The notes below the pieces were generated by a model, which searched no databases, had not been told where the DNA came from, and was given only the letters and a program-made list of their open reading frames with translations. A program made the position numbers and the translations under genes. DNA of 64,000 nt from Arenicola marina (taxonomy: Eukaryota; Annelida; Polychaeta; Arenicolidae): the NCBI GenBank assembly GCA_964019135.1, contig OZ025249.1, positions 31,757,759 to 31,821,758 on the forward strand, read 5' to 3'. Of this stretch, positions 5,911 through 64,000 are shown one piece after another. Every line of letters begins with the position of its first letter. Positions within the stretch are counted from its first letter, which is position 1.

Positions 5911-9897
<3,987 letters not shown>

Positions 9898-15682: not shown

Positions 15683-18600
15683 TCAGCTGGGGATGACGGT
15701 AAGGTAGGCGTATCGGTACTGGTAGCTGTTTGAGGTCTTCAGCAGCACTATTGGACCCAGGACGTGGCGGGGGCCAGGACCGGAATTCCCGACCGCCTGG
15801 GCCTCCAGGACCTCGAGCAGGCCTTGAAGGGTTACGAACCCCACACCGAAGCCTTTGCCGTTGGCGAGCGAGAAGCCGCCGTCCTTCACAAAGCCCAGGA
15901 TAGTTCTAGAGGAGGATTCCAGAAGGTTCTCCACCGACGGTGGCTGCAAACTCACATCGACACACGCGCCGGGAGATTTCTTCTTTTTTTTCTTGTCCCC
16001 CTTGGGGGTCTTGTCCCCCTTGGGGTCCTTGGGGGCCTTGGGCGGCTTGTGCATGGGTTCCAGCGGGCCGGCGTGGCGCCCGTCCCCCGCCAATGTGGCG
16101 AGGTCGGCCGGGGTGGGCGCGTGGATGGACGTGTAGGCGACCGGCGACCCTCGAGACACGACAGTCACCTGGACGGGCACCAGACAGCGGGAGTGGGACG
16201 CGGTGGAGGTCCTCAAGTCTGATAGAGCGATGGTGATGGCGCTGGCGGTGGCGGTGGCGGCCTGGGGAGTGACGGCCTGGGGGGTGGCGGCCGGGGGGGT
16301 GGCGGCCTGGATGGCGGCCGCAGTCGGTGGCTTGGTGTCATGGACGCTGGTTTGCGTGAGGGTGGTTCGGGCCGCCTTGGCGATGGGCTGGGGGTCCACC
16401 CCTGCCTCGTCCTCCACAGCCCGGTGTTTCCCCGACCGCTGGAGAGTGGGCTTCCGTCGCCTGGTGCACAACGCATCCAGCTTATGCAGCATACTGGCGC
16501 AGCGCAGCACGTGGAACGTCCCAGCGACTGCACCAGTCTTCATCCCCGCGACTGCACCAGGCACCATGCCAGCGACTGCACCAGGCACCATGCCAGCGAC
16601 TGCACCAGTCTCCATCCCAGCGACTGCACCAGGCACCATGCCAGCGACTGCACCAGTCTCAATCCCAGCGACTGCACCAGGCACCATGCCAGCGACTGCA
16701 CCAGTCTCCATCCCAGCGACTGCACCAGGCACCATGCCAGCGACTGCACCAGTCTCAATCCCAGCGACTGCACCAGGCACCATGCCAGCGACTGCACCAG
16801 TCTCCATCCCCGCACTGTGTGGTGCTGGGCGGTCGGTAGGCTTAGAGCCAGCGGACCCTCCTTCAGGTTTGTCCTGCTCCCTAGGTGGTGCCGCCGCCAC
16901 GAGGCGGTCGGTGCACGCCCCCACCCCAGCCCCCCGGCGGCTCCACTCGACCGTCAGCTCGGCCCAGGGGTACCAGAGCGGGGCGGCCACCCCCAGCTTG
17001 CCGTAGCAGGGCCGTTTGGCGGGGGGCATGCGCTGGTACTTGCCGTAGCGCTGCCGCCACTCGTCCAGCTCCGACTGCCGCCCGGCCGGGGTGTCCGGGT
17101 AGCCGGACGGGTAGGCCAGACTGCCCCTCTCCAGGGCCAGGCGAGTCAGGTCCTGGAGGCCTGCCGTGCGAGCGCCCCGGTAGACGAGCGGCACCCAGAA
17201 GGCCATGCCCCACCCGCCGGGCAGCACCAGGTCCCAGCCGGCTCCGTATCCCAGGCCGCAGGCGCTGTGCTCCCCGCGCGGGCCGCCCCCCGGCTGCTGC
17301 AGCAGAAGGGCCGGAACACGAGACTCCTCCGTTCCCAGGTCCAACACCGACCCTGCGACAGGAGAGATGGGGGGGGGGGGGGGAGAGGGGGAGACGAGAC
17401 GCCATCAGACACGGGAAACACCTCTAAATCAGCGGATTACATCGGCACATCTTATATTAGAATATTTGTACCGATATTAATATATCAATCAAAATTGAAA
17501 GACATTTAAATTTTTACATTTTTAGAAAAGCCTATAGTGATGATTAAGACGATAATACTAACAATACTTGGTACATTCTCTATAGTCCAGCGCATATAAG
17601 GGTTACTGACACTTGATATATGTACCAATCGCTGAAACTTGCAGTTAATCAACAGGACAATGGTCATACCGGGCACGAGATTGTTGGCTCTCCTCTCGTT
17701 GAGCTTATGCTCAGTCATTTTGGTTTCCTTAACCTCTGACCTGACCCAATTCTCCCAGAGTGCAGACCAGTTCGCCGTAGACGGTAAGCATTGAGGTGGG
17801 CTGACTTCTTTCATGAAAGAAAAAAACAAAACCGTTAGTAGCAATGTTGCATGTAATACGAAAGCAAAATCAAATGTTTACGTTAGTCATGTTAGTGGAA
17901 TATAGATAGATGTCCAGAAATATTAGTTACGAAAACTTGTGTACGTAAGAAGGCTAAACTGAACCAAGGAACCTGCCGGGACAAGCGCTTTATAGAGCGA
18001 ACAGGCGTAAAAGCGTCAGCACCGGGCAGGAACAAATATTACTTACAGGGGGGGCCACAAGAAAAATAATTTAAACGTTATAGTCAACAGTGAATGATTA
18101 GTGGGCAGCCTGTTATATGGCTTATATTATAATATAATTTAAACCTGGTATATGGCTTATATTATTATATAATTTAAGCCTGTAATATGGCTTATATTAT
18201 AGTATCATTTAAGTCTGTTATATGGCTTATATTATAATATAATATAAGCCTGTACAATGAGTGTATATTAGAAAGGAATGCCCCCTTTAACGGTAGAAGC
18301 ATCACCTGACTTGGTCTTATTCACGGCCATGGTTTTCTTCCTGGGCAGGAAGAGACGCGGGTCTCGGATAGTGAGGCCGAGGACGCAGCCAGACGGCATG
18401 AGGGCGGGGGTCTCCAGCCCCGCCAGGCGGCGCCACAGGTCGCTCTGATCTTGGTGCACTTTGTACATCCCGCCTTCCCCTTCCGCCTTCAGCCCATTCA
18501 CATCCCCTCCGCTGTCGCTGCCGGCCTCGACGCCGTCCTCGCCCGCGGGCGTCTCCGACCTGTAGTATCGCTGCCACCACCGCGCGTCCTGGCAGGCGTC

Positions 18601-58075: not shown

Positions 58076-61000
58076 TCACGGCCGGTGGAACCTGCAAGAC
58101 ACGGACAGAGCGCCTGGTTAGCAAATTATAAACGTCAAACTCAAGGCACTTCTCCGCACTATAATGCGGCATTACTTGAAACTCAACGGCAAACCACGTG
58201 ATCAACCCACGTCAATCGGGGACAGCAGCACCACCTGGTGTTCAAATAGTCCTCGCTACTCAGCCTGGGTGACGGCATTACGGGCAGATGGTGTGGGGGT
58301 GGGGGTGGGGGGCAGAGGATAGGACAGATATGCTACAATATGCCAGATAATGTCTTTCTACTTGACTTTTGTAGACAATGTCATGATTTGTTGCTAACAA
58401 CAGAAGTGTCGGTAAACAGGTTTGAGCTGTAGATTACCAGGTCGTGGGTTCGTGCCACAGGGACATTTTCATCTAATCCCATTTCATGTCCCGTGGGGTT
58501 CCTGGACTCAATTTAGCCTTCGTGCCCAACAATACGGCCTAAAGCATTTTAATAAATTGTTCACTTTTACTTCATAGACATATGGCGGGTGTGGACCGCC
58601 AGGGCAGGCAGGTGACCCTGACCTTGTGTAATGCCGACTCTCGTCGTGGACTGCCATCTCTGAACTCTTGTACTCGTTGAGTTCCTTCCGGATACTCGCC
58701 TGGATCGGAAACAAATCAGACATACAATCTGGATCAACCAAATATATATATATATTTTATTAATAATTATTGCTTGCAACAAAATAGCAGGGAATAATTA
58801 TACAACAAAAATGCAACCAAACCTTTACAAGTAAGATTGGATCGTTCTTCCATGCTATAGCGAACCATTGTTCCACAATAGCCCACGTATGACTCACGCC
58901 TACCATTTACTACAACAATCCATTTCGTGGACTCTAGCATGAAAGAGGGATCCAACATGGTTGTCATTAATTATATTATATCTTTTACACCCGTGAAATT
59001 TTAGGTGTAAACCAGAAAAATAAAATGAAAAATAAACAGATAGTTCAGAGTGCTGACCTTGTCCCTGGGAGTGAGTCGGGTCCAGGGTTTGTCGGCCTTT
59101 CGGTCGTACTCGTGCGCCTCGGTCACCTCGAAGTAGTCGCTAAACTTGATGATCTTTCGGTCACGCAGTTCCTCTAACGTGGGCCGGAAACTCAACTGTA
59201 TAAGAGACAGAGGGCGCCGGGAGTTAATAACGCCAGAGCGAGACTCTCGGCCACCACCACGTGGCGTCTGTACGAGACCTTCTTACAGGCGGCAAATCTT
59301 TAATGACTGCCATTAGCTGCTAGACTTTTTGCCATGTAAGAAAGTAATTGGTGATAATAATCAGTCATTATCTTCAACAGGGGGCATATTAGCCTACTTT
59401 GTATGTGTGTATTCACTTTATTTCTTCACTGGCTTCTCTCCAGGACCTACCTTTCGTATCAACGTTCTCTTTTTCTCCTCCAAATCCTTTTTCATTTCCT
59501 CCAATGTGGTAGCTACAAAGATTATACGAAAATGTCGGTGCATGCTCTTTCCAGCCTCATTACTAAGTGAAGATTGTTACAGCAGCGAATAAATTCTGCT
59601 TTAATGTTTTTAATGTTAAATTTTTAATGTACCGGTAAACAATTTCTTCGTTTTACGGCCCTGTATTAAATGAAGTGAGGTCTTGTTCTAGACGTTCATC
59701 AGCTTACTGTGTAAAATATTTCTTTGTTCTAGCTCCTCTTGTGACGGTCGTAAACTAAGTCGTCTGTAAGAGAGACATGACTGCTGTCAACGACAAAATA
59801 CAAACATGCATTTCAAGTAGTATAAGATGTGCTGTTACTGTTACCGATGTTACTGTTACCGATTATCAGACCTGTAAATTGTATGTATTATTAAAAATAG
59901 GAATAATAATAACAAGTAGGCATATAATATAAAAGTAGTAATTGTCATAATTTTACTCCTTCGTCACTAGACGTATTCCACGGACTATGCAAACCGACAG
60001 CAACTTTTGACGTAGATGTCTGCAGACCTTATAATATATTTACAAATATATTAGTGTACAAATAATCGATATGATATCAGTACCTGTTGAGTTTGGTGCC
60101 AATAAATATCCGCTCCTGCAGTTTTTCGTTATCACTTTTCACTGGGAGTATATTTCGCTCGATGAGTTCGCGCCGTTGCGGTCTTTGGTTGAGGAAGCGC
60201 GCCAGGCTGTCTTGGCGCTCGACCTTGGCGGCGAGAATGCCTGGAACAGACAGGAGTAATGACATGTAATATGGAGGCCAATGTGCACAAACATGTATAG
60301 GCCAGAGTAATGGTGGCCATTTAATATGGAGGCCAATGTGCACAAACATGTATAGGACAGAGTAGTGGTGGGCATTTAATATGGAGGCCAATGTGCACAA
60401 CCATGTATAGGGCAGAGTAATGGTGGCCATTTAATATGGAGGCCAATGTGCACAAACATGTATAGGCCAGAGTAATGGTGGGCATTTAATATGGATGTCA
60501 ATGTGCACAAACATGTATAGGCCAGAGTAATGGTGGCCATTTAATATGGAGGCCAATGTGCACAAACATGTATAGGCCAGAGTAATGGTGGCCATTTAAT
60601 ATGGAGGCCAATGTGCACAACCATGTATAGGACAGAGTAGTGGTGGGCATTTAATATGGTGGCCAATGTGCACAACCATGTATAGGGCAGAGTAATGGTG
60701 GCCATTTAATATGGTGGCCAATGTGCACAAACATGTATAGCCCAGAGTAGTGGTGGGCATTTAATATGGAGGCCAATGTGCACAAACATGTATAGGACAG
60801 AGTAGTGGTGGGCATTTAATATGGAGGCCAATGTGCACAACCATGTATAGGACAGAGTAGTGGTGGGCATTTAATATGGAGGCCAATGTGCACAACCATG
60901 TATAGGGCAGAGTAATGGTGGCCATTTAATATGGAGGCCAATGTGCACAAACATGTATAGGCCAGAGTAGTGGTGGGCATTTAATATGGATGTCAATGTG

Positions 61001-62900
61001 CACAAACATGTATAGGCCAGAGTAGTGGTGGGCATTTAATATGGATGTCAATGTGCACAAACATGTATAGGCCAGAGTAGTGGTGGGCATTTAATATGGT
61101 GGCCAATGTGCACAAACATGTATAGGACAGAGTAGTGGTGGGCATTTAATATGGAGGCCAATGTGCACAACCATGTATAGGCCAGAGTAGTGGTGGGCAT
61201 TTAATATGGATGTCAATGTGCACAAACATGTATAGGACAGAGTAGTGGTGGGCATTTAATATGGATGTCAATGTGCACAAACATGTATAGGACAGAGTAG
61301 TGGTGGGCATTTAATATGGATGTCAATGTGTACAACCATGTATAGGACAGAGTAATGGTGGGCATTTAATATGGTGGCCAATGTGCACAACCATGTATAG
61401 GGCAGAGTAGTGGTGGGCATTTAATATGGTGGCCAATGTGCACAACCATGTATAGGGCAGAGTAATGGTGGCCATTTAATATGGTGGCCAATGTGCACAA
61501 CCATGTATAGGGCAGAGTAGTGGTGGGCATTTAATATGGTGGCCAATGTGCACAACCATGTATAGGAGAGAGTAATGGTGGGCATTTAATATGGAGGCCA
61601 ATGTGCACAACCATGTATAGGGCAGAGTAATGGTGGCCATTTAATATGGAGGCCAATGTGCCCAACCATGTATAGGACAGAGTAATGGTGGCCATTTAAT
61701 ATGGAGGCCAATGTGCACAACCATGTATAGGACAGAGTAATGGTGGCCATTTAATATGGAGGCCAATGTGCACAAACATGTATAGGACAGAGTAGTGGTG
61801 GGCATTTAATATGGAGGCCAATGTGCACAACCATGTATAGGACAGAGTAGTGGTGGGCATTTAATATGGATGTCAATGTGCACAACCATGTATAGGACAG
61901 AGTAGTGGTGGGCATTTAATATGGTGGCCAATGTGCACAACCATGTATAGGAGAGAGTAATGGTGGGCATTTAATATGGTGGCCAATGTGCACAACCATG
62001 TATAGAACAGAGTAGTGGTGGCCATTTAATTTTTTGAGGCCAATGTGCACAAACATGTATAAAATGAAGTAATGGTGGGCATTTAATATGGTGGCCAATG
62101 TGCACAACCATGTATAGGACAGAGTAGTGGTGGGCATCTAATATGGTGGCCAATGTGCACAACCATGTATAGGACAGAGTAGTGGTGGGCATCTAATATG
62201 GTGGCCAATGTGCACAACCATGTATAAAATAGAGTAATGGTGGGCATTTAATATGGTGGCCAATGTGCACAACCATGTATAGGACAGAGTAGTGGTGGGC
62301 ATTTAATATGGTGGTCAATGTGCACAACCATGTATAGGGCAGAGTAGTGGTGGGCATTTAATATGGTGGCCAATGTGCACAACCATGTATAGGACAGAGT
62401 AATGGTGGGCATTTAAAATGGAGGCCAATGTGGACAACATGTGTAGGACAGAGTAATGGTGGCCATTTAATATGGAGGCCAATGTGCACAACATGTATAG
62501 GACAGAGTAGTGGTGGTGTATAGGACAGAGTAATGGTGGGCATCTAATATGGAGGCCAAAGTGCACAACATGTATAGGACAGAGTAATGGTGGGCATCTA
62601 ATATGGATGTCAATATGGACAAACATGTCTAGGATAGATTAATGGTTGGCATCTAATATGGAGGCCAATGGGTACAAATCTGGTCGGGCTTTCACAGCGT
62701 TAGGTATAGCGAAGACGAGATTAACGCGAGATCCGCAGAGACGAGATTAGCGCGAACTCCACAGGGACGAGTACTTACTTTCCCGGTCCCGGTCGTCATA
62801 TTGCACCTCGCCGTCTGAGTCTGAGTCGTGCAGGTTGTCATAGTCAGGGTCATAGGCGTGAGGGTGGTTTTCCTTGTTACTCTGGTCCACCATGTGGGCT
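58076..62900 (-). CDS. PHACTR: PHACTR (phosphatase and actin regulator), 3' seven exons
   Basis: PHACTR proteins bind G-actin through RPEL motifs and protein phosphatase 1 through the C-terminus, tying actin state to dephosphorylation. Exons (minus): 62900-62779, 60240-60084, 59763-59708, 59512-59451, 59195-59058, 58699-58623, 58091-58076; GT-AG borders and phases all agree. The first is acidic ([20 protein letters not shown]). Then RPEL 1 ([20 protein letters not shown]), RPEL 2 ([17 protein letters not shown]), a charged helix ([19 protein letters not shown]) and RPEL 3 ([20 protein letters not shown]). The end has DYDR-type [38 protein letters not shown] and, across the last junction, RHYTRFHRP and stop, the classic PP1-contact tail. 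About 210 C-terminal residues are visible; the N-terminal RPEL and the 5' exons lie to the right of the window. The tiny last exon (16 bp) needs splice evidence to be seen. I cannot say which vertebrate paralogue (1-4) it corresponds to. Confidence 0.94.
58410..58540 (+). mobile_element. SINE-B degenerate copy in a PHACTR intron
   Basis: GTAGATTACCAGGTCGTGGG TTCG-type B box followed by a body ending GGGGTTCCTGGACTCAATTTAGCC matches the 3' half of the family (AGGTTCCTTGGCCCAATTTAGCC). It lies between the last two coding exons. Confidence 0.55.
60265..62665. repeat. 55-bp minisatellite filling a PHACTR intron, about 43 copies
   Basis: The unit GCCAGAGTAATGGTGGCCAT plus TTAATATGGAGGCCAATGTG and CACAAACATGTATAG repeats every 55 bp, with a few alternating variants (GGAGGCC/GGTGGCC/GGATGTC; AAACATG/AACCATG). 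It starts only about 25 bp from the acceptor of the 60240 exon and ends about 110 bp from the donor at 62778, so the intron is nearly all repeat. The left edge CAGACAGGAGTAATGACATG resembles the unit's GACAGAGTAATGG. Confidence 0.96.
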
Positions 62901-64000
62901 CTGGGTGAGGGAGAGAAAGCATGGCTTGTTATTATACTGTATCATGTGGGCTCTGGGTGAGGGAGAGAAAGCATGGCTTGTTATTATACTGTATCATGTG
63001 GGCTCTGGGTGAGGGAGAGAAAGCATGGCTTGTTATTATACTGTATCATGTGGGCTCTGGGGTGGGGGAGAGAAAGCATGGCTTGTTATTATACTGTATC
63101 ATGTGGGCTCTGGGGTGGGGGAGAGAAAGCATGGCTTGTTATTATACTGTATCATGTGGGCTGTGGGTGAGGGAGAGAAAGCATGGCTTGTTATTATACT
63201 GTATCATGTGGGCTGTGGGTGAGGGTGAGAAAGCATGGCTTGTTATTATACCGTATCATGTGGGCTCTGGGGTGGGGGAGAGAAAGCATGGCTTGTTATT
63301 ATACTGTATCATGGGGGCTCTGGGGTGGGGGAGAGAAAGCATGGCTTGTTATTATACTGTATCATGGGGGCTCTGGGGTGGGGGAGAGAAAGCAGGGCTT
63401 GTTATTATACTGTATCATGTGGGCTCTGGGGTGAGGGAGAGAAAGCATGGCTTGTTATTATACTGTATCATGTGGGCTCTGGGGTGGGGGAGAGAAAGCA
63501 TGGCTTGTTATTATACTGTATCATGTGGGCTCTGGAGTGGGGGAGAGAAAGCATGGCTTGTTATTATACTGTATCATGTGGGCTCTGGGGTGGGGGAGAG
63601 AAAGCATGGCTTGTTATTATACTGTATCATGTGGGCTGTGGGTGAGGGAGAGAAAGCATGGCTTGTTATTATACTGTATCATGTGGGCTCTGGGGTGGGG
63701 GAGAGAAAGCATGGCTTGTTATTATACTGTATCATGTGGGCTGTGGGTGAGGGAGAGAAAGCATGGCTTGTTATTATACTGTATCATGTGGGCTCTGGGG
63801 TGGGGGAGAGAAAGCATGGCTTGTTATTATACTGTATCATGTGGGCTCTGGGGTGGGGGAGAGAAAGCATGGCTTGTTATTATACTGTATCATGTGGGCT
63901 CTGGGGTGGGGGAGAGAAAGCATGGCTTGTTATTATACTGTATCATGTGGGCTGTGGGTGAGGGAGAGAAAGCATGGCTTGTTATTATACTGTATCATGT
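62884..64000. repeat. 52-53-bp minisatellite duplicating a PHACTR 3' splice site, about 21 copies, runs off the window
   Basis: Read on the minus strand, each unit has a pyrimidine tract and AG (CTTTCTCTCCCTCACCCAG) followed by AGCCCACATG, the first bases of the PHACTR exon at 62900, then ATACAGTATAATAACAAGC. The unit nearest the exon is the real acceptor; the others are copies upstream in the intron. Plus-strand frames of up to 346 codons over the array are by-products. Confidence 0.93.

Follow-up and report, generated by a model that had tools for sequence, protein, structure and literature searches.

Tandem duplications of intron/exon borders, so-called mirages, have been described in amphioxus for the genes Adh3, globin, TnC and PGBD5, and according to the accessible text of the two reports they comprise many copies that carry splice signals (PMC3087553, PMC3902484). 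In the accessible part of the first of these papers, data on Adh3 together with RT-PCR on globin transcripts suggest that splicing is left undisturbed by mirages (PMC3087553). This precedent for minisatellites at exon borders had already been named, correctly, in the initial annotation of the DNA studied here (PMC3087553). The array which we describe at an exon of a predicted PHACTR gene resembles the amphioxus cases Adh3, BflGb6, BflGb9, PGBD5 and TnC, as far as the accessible text describes them, in being a tandem minisatellite laid over a border, at either the 5′ or the 3′ end, with splice signals and exonic bases copied along. It differs in its host, which is an annelid and not a cephalochordate, and in its size: BflGb6 is given with 3 and 6 units in two haplotypes and PGBD5 with 2 to 7, whereas we count 192 units here and 83 in an array at a myosin donor.

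A splice-like sequence is also copied in tandem in the gain of introns by tandem genomic duplication of AGGT-containing sequence, as described in the accessible text of PMC3443670. Unlike there, no new intron would arise at our locus, the copies lengthening an existing predicted intron. Intron gain between duplicated AGGT sites does not describe this locus, where all copies fall within a single predicted intron and contain no donor-like GT. For annelids, repeats have been described in earthworm metallothionein genes, with monomers of 178 and 181 bp on average, and no splice-border array is described in the accessible part of that paper (PMC12783039). Among the matches listed from the open-access literature we found no report of border-spanning arrays in annelids; the array would thus represent a known kind of structure, in a phylum where this search found it unreported.

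The predicted PHACTR gene

The stretch of DNA that was analysed, termed the window, comprises 64,000 nucleotides (C2:31757759-31821758, in a genome of 867 Mb). Exons and splicing are predictions from the sequence, obtained by a coding and splice scan which takes exon phases into account. On the minus strand, RPEL repeats were detected in several exons, and two joined C-terminal exons match the solved PHACTR chain 6zee with an E-value of 4.2e-28. Both results bear out the assignment to PHACTR, a regulator of actin and phosphatase, made in the initial annotation. The exon next to the array, here called exon X, was recovered by the scan together with known PHACTR exons; it gave one chance-level match (E 0.42) when compared alone with the PDB and no match to Pfam. 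The gene model is incomplete, as exons 59708 and 59195 do not join in phase. All features are listed in Table 1.

Table 1. Positions of the predicted PHACTR features and of the two arrays, in window coordinates
Feature	Position	Strand	Remarks
Predicted upstream exon, outside the window	85760-85452	-	coding and splice scan
Predicted upstream exon, outside the window	75684-75264	-	ends with 2 nt of a codon
Array, part inside the window	62891..64000	-	52-53 bp units; runs on to 73022; overlaps the first 10 bases of exon X
Acceptor AG predicted to be the true one (last unit, next to the exon)	62901..62902	-	phase fit; score 4.94, rough consensus matrix
PHACTR exon X	62779..62900	-	begins A/GCC CAC ATG GTG GAC..., ends GAA A/gtaagt; 122 bp
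Exon X donor GT (GTAAGT)	62777..62778	-	score 5.7
Second array, 55 bp x 41, next intron	60263..62516	-	stops 22 nt before the RPEL2 exon; acceptor outside
Next PHACTR exon, RPEL repeat (RPEL2)	60084..60240	-	begins with 2 nt of a codon
PHACTR exon, RPEL repeat	59708..59763	-	
PHACTR exon with RPEL repeat; C-terminal region begins	59058..59195	-	joined with the next exon matches 6zee
Predicted PHACTR C-terminal exon	58623..58699	-	joined with 59058..59195 matches 6zee

The position of the border follows from the exon phases. The upstream exon 75684-75264 closes with an incomplete codon of two bases, which a start of exon X at AG/A GCC CAC ATG would complete, so that the true acceptor is probably the AG that comes first in the last unit. 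The far end of exon X is likewise in phase with the next exon (60240), which opens with two bases of a codon. A stricter exon scan missed this upstream exon; its sole strong candidate was 85760-85452, the phase of which fits the second AG (AGAG/CC). With looser thresholds exon 75684-75264 was recovered, having the top score of that scan. The resulting predicted intron (75263-62901) measures 12,363 bp, and the array accounts for 82% of it (10,122 bp).

Extent and structure of the array

On the minus strand the array covers 10,132 bp (62891-73022 in window coordinates), and its far end corresponds to C2:31830780. Applied to the window and flanking DNA, Tandem Repeats Finder reported 192.2 copies with a period of 53 bp, and splitting of the array yielded 192 units. 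Of the 191 intervals between them, 135 measure 53 bp and the remaining 56 measure 52 bp; 38 distinct unit sequences occur among them. The initial annotation had recognized the array but counted about 21 copies, as the window cuts through it.

On the strand of the gene, each unit reads in the order TATAATAACAAGCC, pyrimidine tract, CCCAG, AGCCCACATG and ATACAG. The element AGCCCACATG constitutes the first ten bases of exon X, which form the overlap between array and exon, and the last unit is the same as the others up to and including these exonic bases. The earlier description of the unit, with its pyrimidine tract, AG and the ten leading bases of the exon, agrees with this content. The motif TAATAAC, which resembles the consensus of a branch site, is present in exact form in 176 of the 192 units. 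A form with displaced AG, CCCACAGCCC, was found in 19 of 192 units; such units had been noted before, though they are interspersed and do not strictly alternate with the other form. A 28-nt core of the unit was found in 135 exact copies genome-wide, and the array likewise contains 135, so the unit is local to the PHACTR gene. In all, the array is a tandem minisatellite of 52-53 bp units within a predicted intron, its unit covers the border predicted from the exon phase together with exonic bases and splice signal, and AG signals are retained in many copies, as in mirages.

Origin and growth

We think it likely that the array is a mirage which originated from the 3′ splice border of the PHACTR exon and was amplified to 192 units, with the last acceptor being the one in use. 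A tandem duplication would first have copied the border of exon X, and duplication of single units and of blocks would then have amplified the array. A duplication across one border would leave a complete and well-placed splice site, and would for this reason be tolerated, so that the array can grow within the intron. The same 13 bases, CAGAGCCCACATG, are found at the start and at the end of the array, and when the flanks of the array are joined, a continuous acceptor with a score of 3.35 results. For comparison, in the intron outside the array only 4 of 86 AGs reach a score of at least 2.5, the best one 4.4. Block duplications within the array are a trace of past rearrangement: a run of 19 units recurs identically 37 units away, whereas shuffling (n = 200) gives runs of at most 6.

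This structured order also bears on the copy number. Long arrays are difficult to assemble, and an assembly artefact might have raised the number of units; we give this almost no credence, as the 38 distinct unit sequences follow a structured order that includes block duplications, the flanks on the two sides differ, and over the 152 kb examined the sole run of N is found at a distance of 26 kb.

The order of events might also have been reversed, with an unrelated intronic minisatellite existing first and the exon border shifting into its last unit later on. The small number of shared exonic bases, only 10, would fit such a capture, and there are arrays which lie near borders but exclude them, such as the one at 60263-62516 and those at the myosin loci L053, L056, L066, L068, L074 and L076. 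We regard capture as very unlikely, however, since the joined flanks yield an acceptor, and since two myosin arrays (L062 and L079, see below) contain copied coding sequence of up to 49 nt, growth there having gone from exon to array. For exon X, of which 10 bases are copied, the direction from exon to array would follow by analogy with these cases and from the joining of the flanks.

Decoy acceptors and choice of the splice site

A ladder of decoy acceptors upstream of the exon had been proposed from the window, and it is indeed present, comprising 191 decoys instead of about 20. The border AG is retained in all 191 upstream units. Both AGs of the sequence CAGAG, the second of which sits 2 nt further, are found in 160 units, only the first in 5 and only the second in 26. 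Scored with weight matrices for acceptors and donors that represent a rough consensus and were not trained, the decoys have a median of 4.32 compared to 4.94 for the true site; 179 of 191 score at least 3.5, and 33 of 191 are at or above the true site. As the decoys come this close to the true site, strength does not explain the choice between them. In contrast, a donor scan over the intronic part of the array gave no score above 0 for any of its 194 GTs (maximum -0.49), while four PHACTR donors score from 0.97 to 5.75. Recursive splicing at an AG/GT in each unit was rejected, the units reading ACAG/TATAA.

In large introns, sites closest to each other across the exon are favoured, according to the accessible text of PMC9225289. 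We infer that exon definition would select the acceptor copy adjacent to the exon, as donor-like GTs are missing from the array. In the long intron, exon X would be recognized jointly with its downstream donor, and with neither a donor nor an exon body behind the upstream copies, the spliceosome would use the exon-adjacent acceptor. All 351 AGs in the searched stretch of the 191 decoy units lead to a premature stop when read in the phase of the upstream exon into exon X. Given these stops and the 0 of 194 donor-like GTs, we consider it more probable that the last acceptor is used than that the choice is regulated, splicing being predicted here. Some use of decoys is nevertheless plausible, since their scores are near that of the true site and the distal copies are transcribed first.

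Such use could also serve a function. In a splicing rheostat, some transcripts would take decoys, gain a premature stop and be degraded, and the length of the array would tune the output of PHACTR. The AG in 191 of 191 decoys, the TAATAAC in 176 of 192 units and the premature stop behind each of the 351 decoy AGs examined are in line with this idea. Retention of the AG is, however, expected anyway in a homogenized array, a donor-like GT is missing from all 194 candidates in the array, and amphioxus mirages are reported, in the accessible text of PMC3087553, as not disturbing splicing. We therefore consider a rheostat unlikely and prefer the reading of a mirage in which the last acceptor is used.

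Border arrays elsewhere in the genome

A census was carried out on myosin-head exons (PF00063), which were found by protein match alone and cover 53 of 77 rows. Donor junctions were set by hand for 51 of the 53 exons and located for 48. On the acceptor side, 43 of the 53 were placed, one of them (L057) 6 nt off, with no array nearby. The flanks of the second batch measure only 120 nt. Six of the 48 placed donors lie inside arrays. The largest of these consists of 83 units of 28 bp, with 82 donor copies that deviate at no more than one base. The others have 6.6 units of 37 bp with 7 donor copies, 11.7 units of 32 bp with 12 copies, at least 5.7 units of 62 bp with at least 5 copies, and at least 3.9 units of 42 bp with at least 3 copies, in addition to a weak repeat of 2 units of 19 bp (L066). 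The 62 bp and 42 bp arrays (L062 and L079) copy 49 and 37 nt of coding sequence, respectively, and hence grew from the exon. Of the 43 placed acceptors, one lies clearly in a border array (L078, 2 units of 81 bp), and another (L061) overlaps a weak repeat of 2.7 units of 15 bp. The PHACTR gene has a further case outside the window, at 115327-115557, where 2.6 decayed copies of a 93 bp repeat extend over the donor of the RPEL1 exon (115512). Between the copies of this repeat, ATGCAG sites resembling acceptors are present.

No enrichment of arrays at the borders was found in this sample. At donors, arrays were seen for 6 of 48 at position 0 versus 11 of 48 at +90 (5 versus 11 of 48 for arrays of at least three copies), and at acceptors for 2 of 43 at position 0 versus 10 of 43 at -90 (0 versus 6 of 43 for at least three copies). 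Arrays of at least three copies make up 19.6% of the window. Border-spanning arrays are apparently common in this genome, which we read, from small numbers and hand-placed junctions, as rich in minisatellites and tolerating such arrays without any targeting. A more far-reaching proposal would be that exon/intron borders are recurrent starting points of minisatellites throughout the genome, and that some arrays, such as the 192 acceptors and the 83 myosin donors, are rheostats of unproductive splicing in which copy number sets output; to this we attach little probability.

Two further myosin loci deserve mention. At L059 (C7:32811923-32814621; 473-708 on the gene strand), an array is made up of units in a row that resemble micro-exons, each with an acceptor-like CCCCACAG, a copy of 10-12 nt of exon and the donor AG/GTACGT. 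At L080 (C1:64331977-64332327), a 53 bp array of 2.3 copies ends within the pyrimidine tract of a myosin acceptor; its nearer copy has no AG at the place of the acceptor, and the farther copy reads CCCCAGACC.

Mitochondrial gene order and the origin of the DNA

The mitochondrial contig of the assembly (C762) carries, on one strand, nad4L, nad4, tRNA-Val, nad1, nad3, nad2, cox1, cox2, nad6, cob, atp6 and nad5. Here, nad2, which matched only a domain shared among NADH-oxidoreductases, and nad6, without a Pfam match, were named by reading. The rRNAs were not found, nor were atp8 and cox3, whose expected place is the seam of two pieces. According to the accessible text of PMC2639372, annelid mitochondrial genomes are marked by a single strand carrying every gene, by nad6/cob following cox3, by atp6 lying between cob and nad5, by exchanged positions of nad5 and nad4L/nad4, and by nad3 standing between nad1 and nad2. 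Syllid annelids deviate from the usual order (PMC4505326, accessible text). The contig fits each of the annelid features that are visible in it, with the nad5-nad4L join assuming a circle. The gene order thus identifies the window as annelid and not as amphioxus DNA. Between atp6 and nad5, a region of about 1.1 kb lacks a long open frame (L021:3062-4186); in Clitellata, Maldanidae and Terebellidae the major non-coding region lies at atp6-nad5, according to the accessible text of PMC2639372.

Other loci

Within the window, a repeat of 24/48 bp, both multiples of three, lies at 16519-16817 between predicted coding segments of the minus strand and may itself be coding. At a distance of about 4 kb there is an exon with a match to POP1_N (PF06978). 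An exon similar to acyl-protein thioesterase (Abhydrolase_2, PF02230) was found on the plus strand at 7665-7843. Outside the window, contig C3 contains dozens of protein-kinase matches between about 14 and 57 Mb, in open frames of about 250-380 amino acids (120 of 1191 candidates scored), suggesting a large intronless expansion.

Implications

With the array at the PHACTR gene, a structure described from amphioxus is extended to a distant phylum and to a size far beyond the examples compared, as these are given in the accessible text of the amphioxus papers. Border arrays constitute a natural experiment in which the spliceosome chooses one site among near-identical neighbours. They are at the same time a trap for gene prediction, and they show a route by which introns can grow harmlessly.
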